DNA of 64,000 nt, from assembly GCA_001574975.1 (NCBI GenBank), contig KQ965804.1, forward strand, positions 185,331 to 249,330, read 5' to 3'. Under the pieces are notes generated by a model that was not told where the DNA came from, made no database searches, and saw only the letters and a list, made by a program, of their open reading frames with translations. Positions 20,018 through 64,000 of the stretch are shown here, in pieces (within the stretch, counting starts at the first letter, position 1; the number at the start of each line of letters is the position of its first letter). Both the position numbers and the translations under genes were made by a program. The DNA is from Gonapodya prolifera JEL478. Its lineage: Eukaryota > Monoblepharomycota > Monoblepharidomycetes > Monoblepharidales > Gonapodyaceae.

Positions 20018-20235
20018 TATCGGAAGATATGGCAATACGTGTACAGATATAAAGTAATACTAATAATCTCGATAGTGAATCATCTCATGTTTGACTATCG
20101 GAAGATATGGCAATACGTGTACAGATATAAAGTAATACTAATAATCTCGATAATGAATCATCTCATGTTTGACTGAGGTTCGGTAATACTAATAATCTCG
20201 ATAATGAATCATCTCATGTTTGACTGAGGTTCGGT
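20018..20235 (+). repeat. Tandem 78-bp and 51-bp repeats
   Basis: Two 78-bp units in tandem (20018-20095 and 20096-20173) differ at one visible position (gatagtgaat versus gataatgaat). The last about 41 bp of the unit recur a third time inside a 51-bp block starting tgaggttcgg (20174-20224), and that start then repeats at 20225-20235. The array is A/T-rich, lies between the convergent CMC1 and OPT genes, and creates a spurious 81-codon frame at 19931-20176. Confidence 0.92.
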
Positions 20236-28371: not shown

Positions 28372-30724
28372 CTACTTTTTCCCATTGAGCGTTTCATCCA
28401 TCTCCTGCATCAACTGGATGAATTCGGCGTCTTTCATTGTCGGATCTTGCAGGAATTGACCAGACGTATAGCTGGACGACTTCCTTCTCTTGATCGCCTT
28501 GCCAGAGGGCAAGCCACTTGAATTCATTGATTCCTCTTGTAATAAGTGGATGTCGGTGCCTGAAATAGCAAACACTTCCAATGCCGTCACTTCAAAGGGG
28601 ACCACAAAGTCCTTGACCAGGTGTTCGGCGGTTCTGGCATTCGATGCAGCACCCCGTGTACGACTAAAAGCATACGTTGGTGGCGTCGATACTTGAATTG
28701 GGTATTGTTGGTAGTATCCAGATTGGAGGGTCTCGTCGAGCAAGATTCGAGATTCCTTGATGCTGTCATGAGTCGCACCTCCACCGAAAGATATCCCGTG
28801 AGGCCCAAAATGTGCGTATTGTGTACTTTGCATCGTTGAATGGAACACCTGAAAAAGAACGGGCTCAGATAGTGCATCTTCGTGTACAAGTGTCCCCAAA
28901 TGTTACCTCGAAGTAAGGTTGAAGCTCAAAAATAAAACTCTCCTCCGATCCGAAAAACCCAGTCTTGAGCTCCTCCCAGATCGTGGGAATGTATGCACCA
29001 ATAATAAGTTCTTCTGATGCAACCGTGCCCACGGTAAGCGACTTGTTCGCTTTGCACTTGATGAGCATCACAGTTGGCGTCGCAGATTTGAAGACGTGGT
29101 CCTTGAACATCTGAAGTGAGAACCCGTGGTGATTTCCTGAGTATGTGAGCTTCCAAAGAGCTTGGAGGTTCTGGGACGAATGACGGTAGCTTTTCTTCGC
29201 CGCGGATTCGGGCACAAATGTTGATAGCTGCCATGTAATGAAAGGGTTAAGAATCGCCGTAACTGCGTCCAGACACCAGATCACCGGGAGAACTGGCTCA
29301 GCTGAGATGTTGAGGGCTACGTTTGCAACAAGCGTCGCGGAAGCATTTGGATCGAACGCGATAGCATTCCCTTTCGATCGGAGGTCATTGTCAGGAACTC
29401 CAAAAAGAGTGGTGCAAGTATCTCGAAGAAAGGTGCCCAGCCCAGTTGGGAGATGTTGTGCCTGCATCGCGACCCATTCACGAAGATGCTGGAGCTTCAA
29501 CGTATCACTATCCGCGAAGCTGGACGGCGCACCGTTTCGGCTAACCATCCCATTTCCGGTATATCGAAAGACTTGGTCCACAGTACGTTCGATAGCGTCA
29601 GGTGGAAAATAGCTTCCGGGTGGTTCTGTTGACGGCGCCGTTTCCGCATTAGATGTCCCCGGAACATTCAAGGCAAGGTGTTTCAATGCCGGAACAGTAG
29701 CCCCGGAAGGATTGTGAGGAAGTCTTCCGTATTGCTCATTGAGAATCGCAAACTTGTTCACGCGAAGGTTTGCCAACACTTCAAACATCTTGATCAGGTC
29801 GGCCCTGGGAATGACGCATTTCTCGTCTCCTGGCTGCTCGGAAGACACTTTCTCGGACAGCACCACCACTGTAGGAGCACCCATTGTTTTCCTACGCTGT
29901 GTCGCTACCCTTTTGGCAGTGTGAAAGTTCAGGACTTGGCGCTTCTCGATCTCGGTAAGAAGTTGTACACCGTTGGCTCCAGAGTTTGAAGTTATGACCT
30001 GTGTCCCAACATCCTCCAATTCAAGCTGAGACGAACTCATTCGGCGAGTTTGGGGGTTGCGAGTGTTCCTGCTATCGGAATGTGTCTGCTGCGGGTTCGC
30101 GCGATTTGAAGAGAGCCCGATACTGTGTGAGAAGGCGTCCAGCATCTGGAATAACACTTGCTCTGGCTCGTCGACAAGAACATATGACACCAGCGCATGA
30201 AGAAACCTGTGGTAATCCAAGCAATCGTCGGGCGCGGCAAAATCGGGATGAAAATGTCGAGAGTGCTGAGTAAATGCTAGCCAGATCCTCTCAAAAGCAG
30301 CCTCTGGAATGTCGAGATAATCCTTCGAGGCAGGAATTGGATTGCAAAAGAAACACTTGCCCACAAAGTCACAAATGACTTGCCTTAAATGCGCTCTTAA
30401 GCACTGTAAAGTTCTTTTCGGGTCGCTCGGATATTGATCTCTTTCGCCCAGGGGTGATCGCTTTTTTGACATCATAGTAGTTTGACAACGTTGTGATGAC
30501 ACGAACGCCAAAACAGAGCAAACGAGCTCACGTCGGAGATCTTCCTTCCTGTTGCAAAGCCAGTTAAAGATCAATCGAATGGTTCGTCTTTCGGTCGCTG
30601 CAAAAAGAGATTCCAGCTGATCTGTACAAAGTGATATCGAATCTGGCGAATCCGCAGGCTCGTGGGAACTCTGTTTGCCTTTGTCTGATGCACCGAACGG
30701 AAAGCAGAAGCACAGCCCAGACAT
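28372..30724 (-). CDS. TLDc-domain protein, copy A
   Basis: Two exons, 30724-28907 and 28848-28372, give 764 aa. A TLDc domain occupies roughly residues 520-710: LWKLTYSGNHHGFSLQMF, IIGAYIPTIWEELKTGFFG, SFIFELQPYFEVFHSTMQ, HFGPHGISFGGGA, LLDETLQSGYYQ and a final FEVTALEVFAIS. The family includes oxidation-resistance protein OXR1 and the V-ATPase/mTOR-linked mEAK-7. The N-terminus is short and Cys-rich (MSGLCFCFPFG), possibly a lipid-anchoring site. A helical region follows (LESLFAATERRTIRLIFNWL; DYHRFLHALVSYVL) that looks like the EF-hand-like N-terminal half of mEAK-7-type proteins. The middle has several low-complexity inserts. The ATG at 30724 was chosen because it aligns with the start of copy B; an ATG 18 bp upstream is in frame. 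The gene is convergent with the CKAP2-like gene. Confidence 0.85.
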
Positions 30725-30832
30725 CTTCCAACGGTTTCGCAATATGAAAAGGAGAATGAATTTCCAAAGCTATTATACACTTCGCTTTTTGGGGGTCGAA
30801 CAATGCTAATGATCACGATCGGTTAATAGATT

Positions 30833-33266
30833 TTAATGCTCCCCAGTTCCTGCAAGGGTGTCCTCCATTTCTTTCATAAATTGAAGGTAGTCGGCATCAG
30901 TTGTCGGCTCTGTGTCGAATGCGGGCATCCTCATGGATGACCGACGCCTCGCATGGGACGGTTCCTCCTTCGCGGCTCCCGGGTCCATTGCACCAATCGC
31001 GTATACTTCGAGATCAATCACATCAAATGGTACAATAAAGTCTTCCGTTCGGTGTCCCGTGGATGTGACGATATTTCGGGTGCGACTGAACCGGTAGGTT
31101 GGTGCAACGGAGACTTGCACTGGATGCTGTTGGTAAGTTCCAGACTGCATTGTCTCATCAAGAATTATGCGAGCTTCTTTTTGCTTTTCAGCAGTAGCTC
31201 CGCCCCCAAACGTCACCCCAGAGGGTCCAAAGTGTGCATACATGTTGTTTTGCATCGTCGTATTAAGAATCTGCACGGAGTACCGAGTGACATTGAGCAG
31301 TGCCAACTGAAATCAATGGACATTGCAAGCTTACCTCAAAGTAAGGGTGCAATTCGAAAATGAAGGCTTCCTCATTCCCGAAGTATCCGTTCTTCACTTC
31401 TTCCCAGCCAGTTGGCACATAAGCACCGATTGTTATTCGCTCAGATGTTGGTGTCCCAGTGACTTTTCCCGACTTCGGCTGACCATTGATAAGAACAACG
31501 GTCGCTGTGTTCGCTTTGAACACGTGATCTCGAAACATTTGTAAAGAGAACCCATGATGGTTACCCGAGTAGATGAGTTTCCAATTGGCCTGCACAGTCG
31601 TTACATACTTCAGAGACTTCTTTGCCGCAGTTTCGGGGATGAACGTAGACAGTTGCCATGCAACAAAGGGGGTGACCGCTGTTGGCCGCGCATCCATTGA
31701 CGTAAGCACAGGCAAGATCTGCTCTGAGCACATGTTTCGGGACAAGCGAGCAATTCGTGTCATTGACGCCCGTGGATCAAACTGATCACCTCCACTCTTG
31801 TGAAGGATGTCATACTCGGGCACGGCGAAGAGGGTCATGAAGTTGTCTTGCAAGAACGTAGCGAAACCCTCGGCGAGTGTCGGAGCTTGGAGCGACACCC
31901 ACTGGCGAAGCTGTGACAAAGTGATAGTCTCACTGGAGCTGAATTCCGCGGGTGCTCGGACATCCAGACCTGGAGAGTAACGTACAAACCGGAAGACTTG
32001 ATCTGCGATTCCAGTTACTGCCTGCCGAATATAGGCGATTTGCGAAGCCACTGGGTCCTGATCACCAGACGCACTTCCGGAAGCCACGGAAGTCTGTGCC
32101 GGTCCCGTGTAGTTTGGCGTCAGCAACCAGGATGGCGCAGATGTTCCAACCGACGAGGTCATATGAGGACTCGTTGGAACCTTTCCGTACGCACGATTCA
32201 CCAGACCAAACTTGCACATTCGCATTGTTGCCACGGCCGTGAGGATGCGACACAGTTCGCCGTGACTGATCGTGAAGGCTTCGTCGCCAGGCTTCTCAGG
32301 AACAATCTTCTCGCTCAACACAACCACGAAGCTCCCTGCCTTGATACTCTTCATCCGCATCTGAATGGTCTCCTTCTTTTTCTTTCGCCCGAGGGTAAGT
32401 CCCTTCCCGATTTCATTATCAAAGACGCGGCGGCGTGCGAGTTCTTTCATAAGGATAACTTGAGGCGTGCTATCGCCACCGAGGTTCGGAACCACGTTGA
32501 GCGACAAGGAGGAGAGCGACGACTGCTTGTTCCGCCGCAGCGTTCCCATGATGGAGCTTTTCCGACTGGGCGAGGTCGACTTGCTGGCGCCGCTCTCCTG
32601 TGCGTGACTGCTGCTGTGCGAGAATGCGTCGAGCATCTGGAACAAGAGCTGCTCGCCCTCTTCAGGAAGCACAAAGGTGGCGAGGGCGTGCAAGAAGAAG
32701 TGGTAGTCCACCTCGTTGGTGCCAAGAAGGTGGTTTGGGGGTGTTGTGTGGAAGTGAGATGCATGGCTGCCTCGAAAAGCGGACCAAACTTGGTCAAATA
32801 TGGCAGAGGGGAGTTTGAGGTAGTCCTGTCATTGATAGATACGTGCAGCGGTGCGACATGTTTGGAAATGGATGGCACCGCAACGTTCAACCACCACCCA
32901 TGGCATCCTCACATCTAGAACATCCTTCAGAACAACCACTCCAGTCTTCTCTTTCCCGGACCCGATCGTCGCCGGGGGCTTCCTCGCCAAGTCGTTGGGG
33001 TCGGCACTAGGCCTCGCCGATGCCCTCCTTGACAGCCCTGCGACGGGGGTCTCCCTTGCCGAGGGGATCTGTCTGAGGGGATCGCCGACTCTGCGCGCCG
33101 AGAGCCAGTTGAAGAGGAACCGGATCGTGCGCCGATCTCCGGCGGAGAAGAGCGATTCCAGCTCCACCACGCATGCCTCTTCGATCGTCGGCTCTTGGTT
33201 ATCCGGCTCGACGGCGGCGGGTTCGTCAGGAGAGACTTTGGATGAGAAGCAGGAGAAGCAGGACAT
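30833..33266 (-). CDS. TLDc-domain protein, copy B
   Basis: Three exons, 33266-32913, 32825-31335 and 31270-30833, give 760 aa. This is a paralogue of copy A with the same architecture: Cys-rich start (MSCFSCFSS), helical block (LESLFSAGDRRTIRFLFNWL; DYHFFLHALATFVL), a QVFRFVRYSPG region, then TLDc (NWKLIYSGNHHGFSLQMF, TIGAYVPTGWEEVKNGYFG, FIFELHPYFEILNTTMQ, HFGPSGVTFGGGA, FDVIDLEVYAIG). Both copies keep an intron immediately after PYFE, so the duplication postdates that intron. Copy B has an extra intron after the N-terminal helical block. The two genes lie head to tail with about 110 bp between them. Function is inferred from the family only. Confidence 0.85.
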
Positions 33267-51104: not shown

Positions 51105-54100
51105 ATGCCATCAGCACTTCCATCGACGATGCTCCACGCGGCAGATTGTCCCGCCTGCCCACCTTGTTTCAACTGCCATTTGCCTGCATTCAGCTGCAGC
51201 CACTTCGCTGAATGCTCCCCTTTTGACGGCAACTGCGAATGTCCTCCCGGTTTCGGTGGTAATGACTGCACTTCGCCTTGTGAGCTCCGCTAAATATCTT
51301 CAAAAAAAACGACGTCGAGTACCCCTAGTTTTGCCTTGCTAACGTTGTTTTCTTACGATGTGCGTCAGTGTGTAACTCATTGGCGGACGGTGCTCGCAGA
51401 GTACCTCGACCTCCTGACAGTCGATCTTGCGAATGTTCAGCAGGATGGAGTGGCATCAACTGCAATGGTATGAGCATGTCAAGTTTTCCACTACACGGAA
51501 TCGCTGATTCTTTCTATCAGTTTGTGAGTTGGATGACGTCTGCTCTCCACTCGTACCGGGCGGCGAAGGGGCTGTGTGCTACCAAGGAATACGCGCCATC
51601 AAAGAGCAGTATTTGATGTGTGATGTGACAAGTGTGTGTCGCTCGTTTATTCATGATGTACCCTACTTACCGCTGCCGCCGTCACCTCCGTCAGACACTC
51701 CAATTCAGAAACAGCTCCCTCCGGATCAACCACCTCAGGTCACAGTAACATATAACGCCACAAGCGGTCAAGGTACTTTTCAATTCTGGGCCGGTGAGAA
51801 GGAGAGTTTCTACTGTCAGCTTTTGGATTGTGAAACAACGCAAGGTGAACAGTGCTACTCTGGGAGCCGTAGCTATTTTCTCATTTTCTCATCGTTTACT
51901 GGACAGCGGACTCGTACTACTCGAACTCCACTCAGTATGACTGTGCGCAGGTCCGATGCCAATGTATGCCAGGCAGGTTGCTTTGTGGCGAAGATGGTTC
52001 AATTGGTCAGTGGTGTCGTTTATCCAACTTTGAACCTCATACCAATACCACTCTGCCATATTCTTAAAGATATTACCGATTTCCTATCTGAGGAGGTCAA
52101 AGGACCGGGGAAGTTCAAGTGCACTGAGCGTGAGGGAGTGGCTGGGAGAACTTGCTCATTTGAAGGTACGTTCATCGCTTCGAGCGCCACGAAGAAAATA
52201 GAACGAGAACGCACATCCAAATCCAGAACCCGCAATGAACGAACTTATCACGGACTTTTTTGGAGACCCATACATCACCTTGTCCTGCACGTCAGGGTCA
52301 TGCCTCCACCAAAGCCAGCTGCCTGGCTACATTATTCCAGAACCATCGAAGTTTGGACGAGCTTTTATGATTGCTTCCATGGTTGCCGCTTTTGCGGTCG
52401 TACTTGTTGTCATTGGTGGAGTCCTTCTCGTGTCTCGATACCAAGACTTAAGAGCGAAACGAAAGAAGATCAATAACCAATACGAGCAGCTGCTTGCGTC
52501 TCTTTTGGGAGAGGGTGGAGGAAGCCAACTGTCGTCGAGTGAAGAAGAAGAACTTCGGCGGGCGCTGATGATGGCTGGGCATAAATCGATGTCCGTTTCG
52601 TGGAAAGGCGTATCTTACTATGTCCAACCTAATAAGAGGGCACGGAATAATGGCGCCTCAACCGGATCTAGGAGCGAAAATGCTGGAGTTGGAATGTTGT
52701 CATGGCTCCGTCGGGGAACCAACCACCCACTGACCAACAATGGACCGATCGCACTTCCTGATGGCGACGATGATGATGAGCCTTCTGAAGCCGTCACTAT
52801 GGAACACTCGTTACAGGAAAGGCTCATTGACGATCGCGGCCATTTGACAATTTTGGACGGAATATCTGGGTGTGTTGGGGCTGGTGAAATTTGTGCCATT
52901 ATGGGTGGGTCTGGAGCGGGTAAGACCACCTTCCTCGACATTTTGGCACGTCGACACAAATCTGGCGTTGTTACGGGAGAGATTCTCGTTAACGGTGCGA
53001 GCATGCCACTGGAGGAGTACAAGCGATCTATTGGCTTTGTTGACCAAGAAGATACTTTAATCGAAACTCTGACTGTGCGGGAGACTATAACATATTCAGC
53101 TCTACTAAGACTCCCTCGGGATATGAGTAACGAGGCCAAGCAATTCCGTGTTCGGGAAACTATGGTGGAACTTGGGATATTGAACATCGCTGATCGCAGG
53201 ATTGGTGGTGCCGGGAATCGGGGAATCTCCGGAGGGGAAAAGCGACGTGTTTCCATCGCATGCGAACTTGTTACTTCTCCCTCAATACTGTATCTGGATG
53301 AACCAACAAGCGGTGCGGATCGATCGATCATTTTTACCTGCGTGATAAACAGAGCAATGTTTCGTATTACAGGCCTTGACTCCTTTAACGCGTACAATGT
53401 CATCGAGTGTCTCGTCACGCTGGCGCGGAACTACCGACGAACCGTTATACTTACAATACATCAGCCACGCTCAAACATTTACGCTTTATTCGACAAATTA
53501 GTTTTGCTCGCGAGAGGCAAGTTGGTCTATTCAGGTCCAGCGCAAGATTCTGCCATCAAGCACTTCTCTCGCTTGGGCTTCCAATGCCCAGTCGGATTCA
53601 ATATGGCGGATTACTTCGGTACGCCCCTAATCGCCTCTCGATGGAACTTTCAACAAACCTAACCCGACATTATTTTGCACAGTGGACTTGACGATGCACG
53701 TCATGGCTGTTGATTCAACAACCCCTCGCACCCCCGTTGACCACTCGGATGACAGCGGCATGACGTCGACATTCCCAGGAAATTCTTCAGTGGATCAAAC
53801 AACAAATACCTCGCTTCCGCGTTCTGTGAAGGCAATACAGGATGAGAGGCTTTTTACCCCACATCAAGAGCGAGACCTTTCACAGGGTATCACTCAAGGA
53901 TCCAGTTCGGAGTCTCTTGATCCTGACGGAAGATCCTCATCTCAAAATGGAGTCAAAAGTGCATCCCCCGCTGTCAAGCGGAGAGGTGACGGCTTCTTGA
54001 ATGACTGGAAGGCTACAACAGATCATCTCGCATACCTCGTTGATGGATTCAAAGCGTCGGAAGCTTTTCGGTCGCTGGAAAGAGCTATTGCTGTTGAAGT

Positions 54101-55385: not shown

Positions 55386-58300
55386 ATGGCACCTCCCCTT
55401 TCACTGAAGATTGTAGCGGGAGGATCCATCTCACAAACGAAGACGTTCCAGGTTCGTAGTTTTCGGTCATCGTGGATAATTCATCGGCAAACGTAACGCG
55501 AGATTGCACTGTGCTGCTCGCAGTTCGCTGGCGACACATCTGTACATGAGGCTTGTAGAGAAATTCGAGAACGCTTAGGGGACTTCACTGGAGGACAAGA
55601 CCATGGTCTCTATCATCCAGACACCAGACAATGGTTAACACCCAACCGCGTTCTGGACTATTACAACTTGAAGTCAGGCGATGTTTTAGAATACAAGAAA
55701 AAGACACGTCCTCTAAAAGTCAGGCTCGTCGATGACACAACGAAAACAGTGTTGATAGACGAAAGCGCCTCAGTAAAGCAACTCGTGGAGTACATCTGCG
55801 ACAAAATAGGTGATTTTCTTCGTATTGGGACTATATCAAGCCTGCCAACATTTGGGTAACGCGATTCCTTCGATCCAAGGGATTGCCAATCCTGACGAGT
55901 ACTCCCTACAATGTGACGTTAAATCAACTTCTTCGAAAAAAAGTAATGAAACACTTTCTCGTCGCGATAAGCGGGGGAAGGGATCTCTGGAGGACCTTTC
56001 TGAAGAAGGTACATTGCGCCCGACCTTTTGTCTTGCACCTCTAAGACGGTCGCTTCAGGTCGATGGCTCTTACCGGAAAAGTGCCTTGCAGAACAAGGTG
56101 TCGCCGACACAGATGCTGTCATGTTGAAAAAGAAGTTTTTCTTTTCCGACCAAAATGTTGACAGAAACGATCCTGTGCAACTGAATCTTATATACAATCA
56201 GAGCAAGGAGGCCATTTTGCAAGGGAAGTATCCGTGCAACCCAGATGAAGCCATTCAGTTTGCGGCGCTGCAAGCCCAGGTTCAATTTGGAAACTATGAG
56301 CCAGAGAAGCACAAAGTTGGGTTCTTGAAGTTAGTTGCAACCCCCATCCACTCCTTCGATTATTTTCTCATGGTTTTGTATTTGCAGAATGAAAGAGTTC
56401 TTACCGGATGAATACCAAAAAGAGAGAACTTTTGATAAACGAATTGTGGCCGAACATCAAAAACTCCATGGGATGTCTGAACTGAATGCCAAATTCCGAT
56501 ATGTCCAACTTTGTAGAAGCTTGAAAACGTATGGTTTTACCTTCTTTGTGGTAAAGGTGGGTTTCAAATGAAGTTGCAACACACGGCAATAATCCGCGAG
56601 TAAGAACTTTGGCCCAAACTTCTAGGAAAAACTAGCAAAGAAAAACAAAATTGTTCCTATGCTGCTCGGCGTCACAAAAGAATCCGTTGTGCGCCTTGAC
56701 GTGGAGACCAAAGAAGTTATTAAATCGTGGCCAATCTCGCAACTACGGAGATGGGCTGCTTCGCCAAACAGGTGAGTTTTTCTGAAGAGCTTTTGTTCCG
56801 CGGCAGCTTATGCAAACTTTGTGAAGCCTCACTTTGGACTTCGGCGATTACGCTGATGCATATTACTCGGTGCAAACAAATGAAGGTGAAGCTATATCTT
56901 CACTAATTGGTGGTTACATCGACATCATACTCAAGAAGAGAAAGGACGCTGAGCGCTCCGTGGAAATCGAAACAGAGGAGATGCCAATTACAGAAGAGTA
57001 TATGCGTCCTGCTCGGGCAAACATCATCAATATTCATCAGGGTTCGTCCCTTAAAACGGCTGATCAAGGAATCGTTCCAGTTCAAGCCAATATTAGCGCT
57101 GCAGCCATGGCAACAATGCAAGCTGGGAAGGTTGCTGCCAACTATCTCGCATTCGAATCTACTGGCAACACTGCCACTCTTGCTGAAGTCCATGGGGCCC
57201 AGCAAGCTTGCTTGCAAACAATCACAAATGGTTTTGCAGTTGTACAATCAGCTGCAGTCGATCTGACACTACCTACTCAACTTCCTCCCTTAGGTGACGA
57301 CATCGAATCGCAACAGTGGATACAACAAACGGTTGATGTAAACGGAGAAAATATTGCTGCACTAATATCAGCGCATCTTGCAGCAGCAGCTTCTGTGATA
57401 AACCATACTGGGTTAGATTCTGCGCACATTGACTACGACAGCTTAGCAATTTCCGTGGCGACACTCGCATCTAATCTTCCTCAGATCACACACGCCATGA
57501 AAATCGTCTCAGCTCTATCAAGTAATGCTGATGAAGGTCAGCTGCTAATGGATGGAGCTCACCAATTGGTTAAAGCTACTCAAGATTTTCTTGAGGCGAC
57601 GCAACTTGGAGTTTCAGGGGATGGGAACCGCATTGAACTTTACCAAACTGCACAAAAACTTGGTGCAGTTTCCGTTACAGTTTTATCTCAATTGCGGGTG
57701 CTTGACATCGATGAAGAATCACAAGCATCTTTGAGAAATGCAGCTAAGGCTATTGCTGGTGCAACTGGTTCCTTAGTGGCTGCCGCGAAGCTTGCTGCAA
57801 GTGCCTCCGCGAATGCACTTCAGGGTGACATAATTCTCCAAGAAGCACGAAAATGTGCCAACTCTGCAGCTATGCTCGTAGCCGGCACAAATCTCATCGC
57901 TCCTGTGGTGGGGAATACAGTTGCCCTTGAGCAAATTGTAGATGCAACATCATTTTTGCGAGAATCGGTTGCAATGCTGATGGAAAACGCGCAAGACACT
58001 GGCCAAGGTCCGATCTCCAACCTGATAAGCGCTGCGTCTGGAGTTGAATTTGCGGTTTCATCTTTACTTCAGGAGGCTCACAGCGGCGGTAAATTTTCAA
58101 AACAAACGACATTGGAGAAGGAATTCAATACCTTCATTGACGTTGTCCAGGGTATGAGAGAGCAGATTGGAAATTCTGAAATGTTGGTGCAGAAAGCTCG
58201 AGAAATCACTGCTTGTAGCACTAGCCTTGTTGCATTGTTGAAAGCCGATGGAACGGAATCACTGGATGAAACTGAACAACAACATTTGGTTCAGGCAAGT

Positions 58301-61300
58301 CTTGGATCTTTCGTCGTGTTTTGTTATGCGTTTGTGACTGGTTTGAATCAATTCACAGGCAGCAAAGGTTCTTGCAGATGCAACGGCGACAATGATTCTC
58401 ATTGCCAAGGATTGTGTCCGACTTCCAGCGGATATTGGAAGGCAGCAGGCTTTACGAGATGCTCTTGATGTAATGCAAACATGTGCCACTAGTGCCGTGG
58501 CGAGAAAACTTAAAGACAGTGCATTTGATCGATTGGCGAAAGCGTCACGGAATGCCGTTGCATCAGTTACACAACTCACGATGGCAGCAGAAGGAGCGGC
58601 GATCTCAAACAGGAATCAAACATCTCAACTTCAGCTCAATCAAGTTACTAAAATTATATCAGAGATGTCGCCATCCATAATATCAGCAGTGAGGGCTAAT
58701 AGAAGAGATCCCACTGATTCTACTCTTCAAGTCGATCTCATCGCAAAAGCCAAGTCAATTGTTGCACCGGCATCGAACTTGATAGCTGCTGCAAAAACTG
58801 CTGCGACGACTACAGGTGACGGTTCTATACAGACGCAATTAGTTTCGTGCGCCAAGCAGACAATGAATGATCTCAAGGCATTGAAAATGACCCTCGACCT
58901 GGCAGAGGTTGCAGTCAAAGGTTCCGAAATCACCGATGCGATTTCCACAATAAATGAAGTGCGGAAATACTTTTTGTCCGGAGACCTGCCACCACTTCCC
59001 ACTGCAATCGACTCTAGGTTGGCAGAAAAGACCCTTATTGAAATCACAAAAATGCTTGCGAAAGATTGTGAGCTTCTACTTTCATCTATCACTCAGGTAA
59101 GTTTTGCAGATATTAAAGAGTTTGTTTGTGACTTGAATCTGTTTGCTTTACCTGCTCATTTACACCCGCAAAACCATTCATAAGGATGGCACTCCTTCAT
59201 TTGCAGCTGCAAGAGACTTGTCCACAAATATTAGAGCGTTGCAATCACCAATCCAAGTAACTGCCGGTTTGTTGTCAAACGATGAAAGAATCGGCGTCTT
59301 CAAAGGTGCAGCAGCAGTAGCAAACGCCGCAGAAATAATGCTGAGATTATTTCAGGAGGCTAGCGGTAATGCAGTAATTGATCAAGATTTGATGCAACGT
59401 GCAGCAACAGACTTGAATGACAACCTACAATCACTTCTTACTCTTATGCCGACGCCTCGTCAATTGGAAAATATACAAGCAGATATTAAAAGTTTATCCG
59501 TATCTGACAACAACACCATCGAGACTGGAGGTTTGACCAATAAAGAGGTTCGGGCAAAAGTTTCGTCATCTGCTGCACTCCTTATTCAAGGGGCAAATGC
59601 TCTGGTCACTGCTGGTGGAAACAATGATTTGCAGGAGATAACCCGGGCAACGAAAGATTTTGGCCCGCAGTTCCAAGTACTAGTTGATGCCGTGAAGTTG
59701 ACCTCCCTCCTCAGTAATGATGCTGATACTTCGTCATTACTGGACAGCATGATAAAGGATTTGGTGAAGACAACCAGTGATCTTCTTAGTGCAGCAAGAG
59801 TTACAGTGATTTCTCCTTCTCCATCACAAGATCACCGCGGTGATTTGGTTACTGCAGGACAAGCTGTTGCAGAAGCCATTGGTGCTTTGCTTTCTGCAAC
59901 ATCTGCAGCAGGACCTGCAATATCAGCATGCAATTCATGTTTGAGTAACATTGCTACGGCAACAAGCAGACTTGCAAATATTGATGAAGTGCCTTCAGTA
60001 ATAGTTACATTTTCTCAGATATCGGGTGCTATTAAAGTTTCAACAAAACAGAGCGCATCTGCAATTAGTTCCATTTTGAAGTTGACCTCAGAGAATGATG
60101 AAGAGGCACTCTCCTTGGCAATTGCAGAGTTTGGGCAATCCCTGCTTCAAATGACAGATGCAACTGTTAAGATGGCATACCTTGTAGGGACAATGGACCC
60201 ATTGTCAGTTGCTGGCCAGTCTCCAAAAATTGATATATCAAGATTTATGGCTTACATGAAATCAATAAAAACAGCCACGGACGCATTAGCACATGATAGT
60301 CCACACCAAGCTAGCATATTAAATGCTGCAGCAGTGATTGCTAAGAATACATCTGCTGCTTGCAATGCATGCAAGGAAATCAGTCAAAATCCCCAGCTTT
60401 CAGGCATTGCTCAAGGAGAGTTCACGCAGTATGCCAAAACAATTGCTGCAGTCACCAGTGGGCTCGTGCCCAAAATGAAAAGGTACGCATTGTCTTTGGA
60501 CAAGCAAAGCCAACTAGACTGCGGAAGTGCTTTGGAACCACTGCAAGAAGTTATTGAGTCCTTGTGCTCCTATGTGAAGCAACCTGAATTTTCAGGAAGA
60601 GCACCAAAATTATCTATTGCAGGCCGAGCAGCACAAAAACCTTTCATTGAAAATGCCACAAAGGCACTCACAAGTGCTACTGATTATGTTAACACCATCC
60701 AATACAGCTTGGAGAATGAGGGTGTCCCTGAAAGATCAGCACTTATTGCTAAAGGTCGAGTAGTGGGAGACAGCATTCGTGCAATTTCTCAAATTATTTC
60801 TACTGGAGTTCCTGGGCAGAAGGAATGTGATGAGGCTATTCACCTTGTCACTAATTCTTTGGCTGATATTGATGCATTGTTGGTAGAACTTGAGGCTTCT
60901 AGCACTGACATATATCAGGGAAAACAATTAGATCAATGCTCAAAAAAATGCAAGACTATCAGTGATGCTGGGAAGGTTATGTCTTCATTGTGTGAAGTCC
61001 TTGTCAAAACAGCCAAATCTAATGCAGTCGAACTGGGTCAAAGTGCATCTCAAGTACCACAAAATTTTTGCAAAGTATGTGAGCAATCATGTTAAAACTA
61101 TGTTACTTCTTATCTGATTTGCTTTTAAAGATTGCGTCACTGACAATGGATCTTGCTTCTTTGATGAAAAATGACAAAAGCTACAAACAAATACTTGAAG
61201 CATTAAAAGATCTAGCAGAGCAGCTCACATCACTGTTGAATGTTTGCAAACAAGCTGCTGGAAATGCAGAATATTATGACGCACATGATCAACTGGACAG

Positions 61301-63572
61301 TGACCTCATCATGTTGCAAGAAGGGGTACGAAAGTTCATAAATACTCTTGATGTAGAGAATCTCAATGCATCACCAGAATTTGCTGCTGCCATTGATCAG
61401 ATTGAAACACAGTTACCAGGTATTTCAGAACATGTGCCTGTGGATTCCCCGTATCAGCAGTACTCTGCAGAAGTTGAAAGAATTGGATCTCAATATTTGG
61501 AAATTGTTCGAAACATGGTCAAATTACGAAATGGGAATGATTTTGCTGCAATAGCCAGCCGTATAGGAGAAACATTCTCTGAAATCATCTTTGCTGTCAG
61601 AGCTGCTAGGACTTCAGCTGATGATTCTGAAACCAAGCAAAAATTAGAAATGTCTTCACTGGAACTTGCAAACACTTCTATCAAGGCTTTAGAGACTCTT
61701 CGAATTGCTAGCAAAGATGCTGAAACATTTGCTGCAACAAAGACAAAGCTATCCATTGCTGCAAGAGAACTCTCAAGTGCAACAAAGAAACTAATGCAAA
61801 TTGCACATGATGGTGCAAAGGGAGCAAACATTTGTCATGACATAGTGTGTAAAATTAATGAACACCTCTCTGATCTAGAGGCCACAGTTATGTTTGCCAA
61901 TGCAGGACAGTTGGATGCAACAGAAGAAAATGACAGCTTTGCCAAACACAGAGATGAATTGTTGGCTGCTGCAAAATCTCTTTCAGACACTGTCAAAGAT
62001 TTTCCAAATGCTCTTGATGGCTCCCAAGATGCTTTAATTCAGAATGTACAGTCAGCCAGCAATGCTTTAGATGATATCCTATGTGTTGTTAAGAAAGCTG
62101 CTACCTCTGTCAGCTCTGGGGAGAGAGACTTACAGCTTAAGTTGTTGTCAGCAGCTCAAGATGTTGCGTCAAATCTTGCGTCTCTCACTTCTGCTGTCTC
62201 TGTATCATATGGGAAGGGAGAAGAGTCTACAGAAAGAAAAGAGGTTGACAGTTGTCTAAAGCACCAAGTTGCATCACTGATGGAGCTTATTAAAGTTACC
62301 AAGGTAATTGGCGAAACATCTTCAAAAGGTGAAGCCAAACTTGCAAAGATCAGAGAGGACATTGAGGGTGCAATAAATGAATATGACTCAAAAATCAATA
62401 CAGAAGAAAGAGCACTTCCAGTTGAGGTAGTGGAAAATGCAAATCAATTTGCAAAAGCTGCAGCATATCTTGTCTCAGTTGTGTCATCTGGACAGCAGGA
62501 CAACTTTTATGCAGCTACAGGAAAGTTTGGAAAAGAGCTGTGTTCACTCATTAAATCTGCAAAAGCAGCTGTATCAGGTGCACCAAATGGCATTCAGATT
62601 GAAATGTCACAAAATGTAAAGCAAGTTGCAAAGAATGGGATTGATCTTGTGGAGAAAGTTGCAAAGGTTTTGGTCACTCCAACAATGAAGACAAAAAATG
62701 AGCTCAATGGTGTTGCCAAGAGTATAGTGTCTTCAGTGAACAGCCTAGTTAATGCAGCCTCTCAGCTTGTACCAGAAGGATATGTTGACCCTAATGACCC
62801 TAATGTTATTGCAGAGCATGAATTACTCATTGCTGCAAGTGCAATTGAGGCAGCAGCCAAAAAATTATCAAGCTACCAACCAGTTGCTGCAACATCATCA
62901 GAAATTGTAGATGTTGACAATATGTCCTTTAATGATGTTATTCTTCAGGCTGCAAAAGCAATTGCTGCGGCAACCAGTGCCCTTGTGAGATCTGCAACAA
63001 GTGCCCAGCGTGAAATCATGGCATCTGTGAATGGTAAAATGGCAAAAGGAAAAATGTATCATAGTGATGGTACATGGAGTGAGGGCCTTGTTTCTGCTGC
63101 TAAAAATGTTGCAGCCCATGTTGCTGATCTCTGTGAGGTTGCCAGTGTATCCCACATTGAGGACAATAAAAGAGAGAAGGCTCTTGCTGCTGCAAAGGGT
63201 GTCAATGCTGCCACAGCACAGCTGCTGTCTGCTGCACAAGTGAGAACAGATGCCACAAGTAGCACTCAAGTACGATTAAAAGCTGCCGGAAAAGGTGTTA
63301 CAAATGCCACAGAGCAACTTGTCAAGGCAGTGGAAGAATCTTTACTTTTTGTTGACAAAGTTGACACAACTGCTCTCAAAGCAAAAGACAACAGTACAGG
63401 CACAAGAGTTGCTGAATTTGAGGCTCAAGCAAGCATAATTAAGGTGAGCATCATTCTCAACCACTCTTTGTAATCATGCTCATATTTCATAATAAAGATG
63501 GAGGCTGAGCTTACCAAGGCTCGACAACGACTTCTCAATATAAGAAAAGGAAAATATGGTGGTGCCAAATAA
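55386..63572 (+). CDS. TLN: Talin
   Basis: Eleven exons sum to 2516 aa, close to the about 2540 of animal talin: 55386-55451, 55524-55809, 55880-56008, 56059-56329, 56388-56556, 56626-56771, 56827-58294, 58359-59096, 59185-61074, 61131-63443 and 63498-63572. The N-terminal FERM head shows F0 (YYNLKSGDVLEYKKKTRPLK), F1/F2 (RWLLPEKCLAEQGV, KKKFFFSDQNVDRNDPVQL, GKYPCNPDEAIQFAALQ, YVQLCRSLKTYG) and F3 (LLGVTKESVVRLD, IKSWPISQLRRWAASP, LDFGDY). About 1,900 residues of Ala-rich helical-bundle rod follow. The I/LWEQ actin-binding module lies at about residues 2320-2510 (NDVILQAAKAIAAATSALV, YHSDGTWSEGLVSAAK, LTKARQRLLNIRKGKYG). Talin couples membrane receptors to actin. From about 60 kb on, base composition changes sharply (see the separate entry). 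Confidence 0.96.
58295..58358 (+). other. Likely GC-AG intron in talin
   Basis: The frame must shift between 58.29 and 58.37 kb, and the family sequence is restored by removing 64 nt with borders CAG|GCAAGT and CACAG|. This gives LVQ-AAKVLADATATM. GCAAGT is the classical GC-donor consensus. A GT alternative three bases downstream (donor GTCTTG at 58298) with acceptor at 58363 would also keep the frame, with one residue changed, but its donor is poor. Confidence 0.65.
60061..63471. other. CpG-depleted, TpG/CpA-rich half of talin
   Basis: Direct reading shows long stretches with no CG dinucleotide on either strand: about 61702-62166 (465 nt) and 62313-62966 (654 nt). Upstream talin exons, for example 57.06-57.36 kb, have roughly ten CGs per 300 nt. 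Alanine is encoded mostly by GCA and GCT, and TGCA is very frequent. The change falls inside one uninterrupted coding exon (59185-61074), so it is not a gene boundary. Confidence 0.85.
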
Positions 63573-64000
63573 TTTTAGTTTTTATTTATTACAATAATAG
63601 TATTGAATTCTCAAAAGTGGCAATAATAGGTTACTTCATCTTGGGAACATACCCAGAGGAGAAAGTCATTTCAAAGTCCCAGTGGATATTCTTCTTATTT
63701 CTGCTTTACCTTGTGAAATGTTGGATTGTACTTGTGACCACTGTAGGTAGTGTCTTGAAATTGTTGCTGCTCAGATAATCATAATATTGTCTCTGATCCA
63801 TTTATATAACCTTTAAAAATTTACTGTTACATAAGTACGTGAATTAATTATTTCCACAATATAAGTAACACTACTGCAGGTCATGTTGACACAATCAAAC
63901 CTTTCATGCTACACAACCTAGGTGAGCTGCACGAGCCTGTAAACTGCAGGAACGTGTATATATATGATCAAACATACATAATATGTTGTAGCGCACACAG
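63573..64000. other. A/T-rich 3' flank of talin
   Basis: After the talin stop, 428 nt of A/T-rich sequence hold no open frame of note. Possible polyadenylation-type AATAATA/aataatag elements occur at about 63592-63628. No further gene start was seen. Confidence 0.6.

Follow-up and report, generated by a model that had tools for sequence, protein, structure and literature searches.

CpG erosion in the 3' half of a Gonapodya prolifera talin gene and its probable link to a putative adjoining repeat island

The CpG depletion of transposable elements (TEs) in Austropuccinia psidii has been attributed to historic deamination of 5-methylcytosine (5mC); repeats there are hypermethylated, and repeat-induced point mutation (RIP) was deemed unlikely (PMC12774611). 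RIP in Leptosphaeria and Neurospora leaks from repeats into neighbouring unique DNA (PMC2973834). In Rhizoctonia solani AG8, hypermutation from CpG to TpG includes coding DNA and is commoner close to repeats (PMC4014442). A Masc2-type DNMT1 is found with a CpG signature in TEs (PMC4352252), and 5mC is confined to transposons in Spizellomyces (PMC12695648). Acanthamoeba and Cyanophora have TE-targeted CpG methylation without gene-body methylation (PMC12344493), and both TE and gene-body methylation are present in Amoebidium (PMC11244446). The subject of this work is a talin gene of Gonapodya prolifera JEL478 in which the 3' half is strongly depleted of CpG. The gene lies in KQ965804.1 (contig C74 in our labelling) of a 47.6 Mb genome, within positions 185,331 to 249,330, a stretch of 64,000 nucleotides that was analysed whole and is referred to here as the window.

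Talin with middle, vinculin-binding, and I/LWEQ domains occurs outside animals, in zoosporic fungi, and a Spizellomyces match is listed (PMC5042518). The CpG-poor part of the Gonapodya gene, called the desert below, is probably the product of methylation-linked CpG decay where the gene borders on repeats, a reading in which we infer the presence of 5mC from base composition.

The CpG desert of talin and its edge

The CpG observed/expected ratio (o/e) per kb lies between 0.65 and 1.24 over window positions 1-59,000. It is 0.58 from 59 to 60 kb, and 0.25, 0.24, 0.10, and 0.24 in the successive kb between 60 and 64 kb. None of the 119 500-bp bins in positions 1-59,500 falls below 0.5, the lowest being 0.55; the bins starting at 59,751 to 63,501 have values of 0.05-0.39, all below that minimum. 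A preliminary description of this DNA had reported a CpG desert in the 3' part of talin, an excess of TG and CA, and stretches of 465 and 654 nucleotides with no CG. All three are present, the TG+CA o/e rising to 1.5-1.6 and the two CG-free runs being bounded by CGs at 61,701/62,167 and 62,312/62,968. The eroded segment (59736..63905, unstranded) was delimited using the change point, the 500-bp bins, and a genome search, and comprises the 3' coding half of talin, the last introns, the last exon, and the 3' flank. The depletion runs past the talin stop codon toward the end of the window, where contig C74 ends too.

The talin gene extends over 55386..63572 on the plus strand; its ATG, introns, and stop were assigned by eye, using open frames and GT..AG. 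Pfam matches were obtained to Talin_middle, Talin_R4, Talin_VBS2, IBS2B, TLN1-like_RS, and I/LWEQ. The N-terminal head has an IRS/PTB match, the remainder of the head having been read by eye, and the C-terminus is composed of the I/LWEQ domain and a short last exon at 63498-63572, also read by eye. Along its rod, the protein is collinear with human talin-1 (PDB 6r9t) over residues 1119-1738 and then 1758-2496. Reading frames across the desert are open, and the coding sequence (CDS) within it is 3,639 nucleotides long, roughly half of the talin CDS (exons read by eye). A protein search with a 652-residue frame spanning the boundary found one place in the genome, talin itself, and a DNA search with 59,700-63,600 found one match, itself; the desert is single-copy. 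A comparison with talin paralogues in the same genome had been proposed, and these protein and DNA searches found no second copy.

The edge was located using 840 synonymous CpG-capable sites. A single change point falls at 59,736, where retention of CpG goes from 0.29 upstream to 0.04 downstream (log-likelihood -314.7, versus -367.0 without a change). The support interval of two log units under the single-change-point likelihood is 59718..59868 (unstranded) and lies within one exon, at ~59.17-61.07 kb. A fit with two steps, at 59,736 and 60,528, and retention of 0.29, 0.10, and 0.026 is somewhat better (log-likelihood -310.3), and the fitted sigmoid scale of the edge is 0.42 kb. The boundary had earlier been placed mid-exon with a start at 60,061; the mid-exon position stands, and the start is corrected to ~59.74 kb.

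Upstream of the edge, the 5' part of talin (56060..59735, unstranded) is mildly CpG-reduced as measured by synonymous-site counts. It retains CpG at 106 of 371 synonymous CpG-capable sites, versus 412 of 974 (0.42) in seven other open reading frames (ORFs) of the window (p = 3e-6). These ORFs serve as the control; six have Pfam matches, the seventh is at 53,631, and short introns are possibly included. An ordinary CG frequency had been claimed for the 5' half of talin and for all other genes, which is correct for the other genes and not fully so for 5' talin.

Amino-acid content and codon usage do not account for the desert. Its CDS contains 30 CpG, and simulation that keeps the amino-acid sequence and draws codons as the seven control ORFs use them predicts 233 +/- 11 (the lowest of 2,000 draws was 195). 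The codon usage of 5' talin predicts 170 +/- 11 (lowest draw 137). These results uphold the earlier statement that ordinary codon bias is insufficient. Even the codon usage of the desert itself predicts 86 +/- 8 CpG (lowest of 2,000 draws 58), an excess that arises because codon junctions are depleted as well. An explanation by amino-acid content or codon preference alone is therefore extremely improbable and was ruled out by the simulation, even though amino-acid make-up does alter CpG opportunity and talin differs mildly at non-CpG G-ending codons.

The loss is restricted to the CpG context. Among third positions of C/T-ending codons, the share of C before G drops from 0.39 in the control ORFs to 0.29 in 5' talin and to 0.04 in the desert. 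The corresponding shares are 0.60, 0.58, and 0.60 before A, 0.37, 0.33, and 0.34 before C, and 0.49, 0.36, and 0.34 before T. Before T, the small gap between control and desert (p = 0.013) is present in 5' talin as well. Both strands are equally affected: C at third positions before G was kept at 10 of 258 sites and G at third positions after C at 9 of 190 (p = 0.65). Arginine codons of the form CGN make up 11 of 30 in the desert versus 132 of 178 in the controls, a ratio of 0.49; synonymous CpG sites in the desert are down to 0.10 of control, a measure not quite equal to the arginine ratio. Retention of CGN far above that of synonymous CpG is what would be expected had the protein been under selection throughout. 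A loss that is CpG-specific, strand-symmetric, and sparing of replacement sites supports deamination of 5mC, one of the candidates put forward in the preliminary description, as its likely cause, and a DNMT1-like enzyme is encoded in the genome.

Repeats, methylation machinery, and timing

The window ends inside a repeat. Positions 63906..64000 (plus strand, identified by repeat search) consist of the last target-site base and the first 94 bases of a 241-bp unit resembling a solo long terminal repeat (LTR), and the contig ends within it. From left to right, the talin stop codon is followed by ~334 bp, one young repeat, and the contig end. Among the 40 of 355 candidates that were scored, the last 95 bases have 39 other places at 96-100% identity, and a second set of matches adds further copies, for more than 40 near-identical copies of the repeat. 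The complete unit is 241-242 bp in length and ends in TG...CA. Eleven fetched copies could be read on both flanks. By eye, eight of these have a 5-bp target-site duplication, all eight being single units, and those at L014, L036, and L038 do not. On these two features the unit looks like a solo LTR-like remnant. By eye, no partner contig across the break was found among the 40 scored repeat candidates in each set of matches.

Partial or diverged relatives were also seen. The first 26 aligned bases of the repeat are present at L020:2029-2054 without the remainder of the unit (a single N is in the same 500-bp bin), and a similar partial match at L013:3071-3095 breaks off where the locus ends. 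Contig C74 is CpG-poor at its left end (1-1000) and carries an 82-83% relative of the terminal repeat there. Also near that end is a sequence encoding a fungal-type Zn2Cys6 binuclear cluster domain (L002:1754-2599, minus strand), which suggests a fungal genome.

CpG erosion is associated with transposon-like repeats elsewhere in the genome in the copies sampled. In the flanks of 13 repeat copies, 35 of 46 readable 500-bp bins have a CpG o/e below 0.5. The background is 6 of 195 bins in ten other stretches of C74 and 0 of 19 readable 500-bp samples spread over the genome (one further sample is N). Ten of the 13 copies were hand-picked as lying inside contigs and the spread samples were taken at round coordinates, neither set being formally random. 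The loci read, designated by L numbers, total 196,136 letters, some of them N, with ~7 kb within the window (L001, L012). The starts of ten contigs comprise three that are all N, four that are CpG-normal, and three that are CpG-poor wholly or in part.

Two further deserts, C74:147.75-150 kb and C38:243.0-244.5 kb, were searched against the genome and proved repetitive in all or part of their length. Of the three deserts tested for copy number, only that of talin is single-copy, and it bears the signature of the repeat compartment. Twenty ORFs from repeat-bearing or CpG-poor loci gave two RVT_1 (reverse transcriptase) matches, one weak sub-threshold D5_N match, and seventeen with no match. The D5_N-like frame (L031:1710-2789, minus strand) is 360 amino acids long, lies in CpG-poor DNA beside a repeat copy, and scores 22.1 of the 22.4 bits required, just under the Pfam cut-off (E = 2e-4). 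The stretch at C74:147.5-150 kb (L009:7500-10000) is internal to its contig and CpG-poor with a sharp edge, and five more copies of its final ~550 bases are present at 90-92%.

The enzymes that such decay would call for appear to be encoded. A search of the genome with PF00145 gave three matches at two loci, on contigs C14 and C12. The C14 locus (450057-453975; L016, L017) contains a DNMT1-like gene with methylase pieces whose best PDB matches are DNMT1, and two BAH matches, both below the Pfam cut-off. The first methylase motif is preceded, ~2 kb upstream, by an RFD match at C14:450,057. The C12 locus (392011-392250; L018) is DNMT2-like. SRA domain matches are present on four contigs, and together with the DNMT1-like gene they indicate maintenance methylation machinery. 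A search for zf-CXXC gave no match, and none in the control genomes either.

The repeat copies also give an indication of timing. Over the 13 copies, four transitions were counted at 156 CpG bases and eight at 2,977 other bases (~9.5-fold, p = 0.002), from which CpG hypermutability appears, on small numbers, to be recent or ongoing. The copies have lost ~5% of their CpGs (4 of 78; interval 1.4-12.6%), versus ~90% of the synonymous CpGs of talin. By CpG loss, and with an equal rate assumed, the talin stretch is ~44 times older (range ~17-160), and insertion of the LTR-like element was rejected as the cause of the erosion.

Explanations for the erosion

The data favour a cause that was absent from the earlier candidates: the gene ends next to a repeat, where the contig breaks off, and the repeat islands of this genome are CpG-eroded. 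Under methylation-linked decay, the genome would consist of two compartments, gene DNA that is CpG-normal and repeat islands in which methylated CpG has decayed to TpG or CpA. The 3' end of talin would adjoin such an island, which the assembly does not cross. For a long time a methylated domain would have extended over the final ~3.9 kb of talin and stopped at a more or less constant position within an exon, with the remainder of the gene covered at a low or occasional level. Methylated CpGs in the covered part would then have mutated to TG or CA, mainly at synonymous sites because purifying selection preserved the protein. Methylation over the desert, its spread from an island past the contig end, and the stability of the edge are the parts of this account that we infer. 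A stronger form, in which a methylation border has long been fixed inside the exon, with the 3' half in permanent repeat-type methylated chromatin and the 5' part mostly open, is tentative and somewhat doubtful.

Several observations weigh against methylation-linked decay. On the talin-side (upstream) flank of the repeat copies, just 13 of the 21 bins that could be read fall below 0.5 (own count). Several copies are beside fairly CpG-normal DNA, with values of 0.85 and 1.13 (L037), 0.91 (L038), 0.84 (L036), 0.79 (L014), and 0.53 and 0.87 (L031). The loci read revealed no second host gene with an internal edge. G-ending codons without C at position 2 have a share of 0.41 in the desert versus 0.54 in six control ORFs (p = 3e-5). 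The same codons have a share of 0.45 in 5' talin, from which the desert is no different (p = 0.36); the shortfall is a mild gene-wide preference in talin and counters a pure CpG account of how talin differs from other genes. Finally, the recent repeat cannot be the cause of the talin erosion, being too young, and the account has to place an older methylated island past the contig end. Because the talin erosion is far older and several young copies are beside CpG-normal DNA, the LTR-like repeat would have inserted late, into or beside a domain that was methylated before it came.

The rival that survives best, although unlikely, is a CpG-directed, RIP-like premeiotic mutation of repeats that leaked in bursts into the adjacent single-copy gene, as opposed to slow decay. 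RIP is reported to leak from repeats into nearby single-copy DNA (PMC2973834), CpG-biased hypermutation in Rhizoctonia is commoner nearer repeats (PMC4014442), and a fungal-type Zn2Cys6 domain is present in the genome. The talin desert is itself single-copy, and its length of ~4.2 kb compares with at least 930 bp cited for Neurospora (PMC2973834). The three PF00145 matches are DNMT1-like and DNMT2-like only, with no RID-type enzyme among them, in an exon-by-exon search from which introns could hide one. Spared replacement CpGs and open frames fit gradual loss under selection better than bursts. The preliminary description had named a RIP-like process without specifying its target. RIP of the Pezizomycotina type, which is directed at CpA, is rejected on the share of third-position C before A, which is unchanged across control, 5' talin, and desert; of this candidate the CpG-directed leak alone is kept.

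Methylation biased to the 3' part of the talin gene body, independent of any repeat island, is quite improbable. It could place an edge within a gene, and in some expressed Cyanophora genes methylation builds toward gene ends (PMC12344493). The low CpG of talin, by comparison, passes the stop codon toward the repeat, the rest of the window shows no such drop (0 of 119 bins), and the CpG-poor stretches tested elsewhere are repeats. Gene-body methylation of the animal or plant kind is likewise not seen in the window bins before 59.5 kb, the genome beyond having only been sampled.

It is very improbable that a copy with another base composition took the place of the 3' half, one of the earlier candidates in the form of gene conversion, or that the stretch was misassembled: an abrupt boundary and a contig end would suit it, yet third-position choice outside CpG is alike in both talin halves (p = 0.62 and 0.36), which rules out a differently composed copy, the desert has a single place in the genome with no second copy, the protein is collinear with talin-1, and the 3' flank holds the genome's own repeat.

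If methylation-linked decay is correct, the methylation of repeats can influence which codons are used across kilobases of a gene that stays intact, an effect that would be strong but local here, and CpG profiles could serve as a sequence-only marker of heterochromatin edges where genomes have no methylation data. If the border was in addition fixed, the CpG profile of talin would preserve, like a fossil, the trace of a heterochromatin edge that kept its place inside a transcription unit, and a stable mid-exon edge would allow asking what halts the spread of methylation inside a gene.

Other window features and comparison with known systems

Two neighbouring frames on the minus strand (28868-30769 and 31266-32828) both have TLDc matches and are possibly a tandem pair. 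Two overlapping near-perfect tandem repeats, 78 bp x 2 and 51 bp x 2, lie at 20018-20235 and have sequence in common. Rfam and tRNA scans of the 64-kb window gave no matches.

The kind of process proposed here is known; what is unusual is that the erosion is near-saturated over ~3.6 kb of coding sequence that is still intact and has a sharp edge in the middle of an exon. In the parts of the literature on such CpG erosion that were covered, an edge of this kind is not described. The domain set of the zoosporic-fungal talins is like that of the talin described here, and composition and methylation are absent from the sections of that account drawn on (PMC5042518). The Masc2-type and Spizellomyces systems (PMC4352252, PMC12695648) share with this locus a DNMT1-like enzyme as main candidate, the CpG context, and the targeting of transposons. 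As far as the relevant sections of those accounts extend, they concern transposons and no gene cut by an edge, and the enzyme of Gonapodya is placed no more narrowly than as DNMT1-like. The changes in R. solani AG8 are heterozygous single-nucleotide polymorphisms found genome-wide (PMC4014442), whereas talin has one near-saturated domain with a sharp edge. RIP in Leptosphaeria and Neurospora targets CpA and yields alleles with stop codons (PMC2973834); in talin, CpA sites are unaffected and the frame stays open. The CDS of A. psidii is hypomethylated (PMC12774611), whereas in Gonapodya ~3.6 kb of intact coding sequence is as eroded as repeats.

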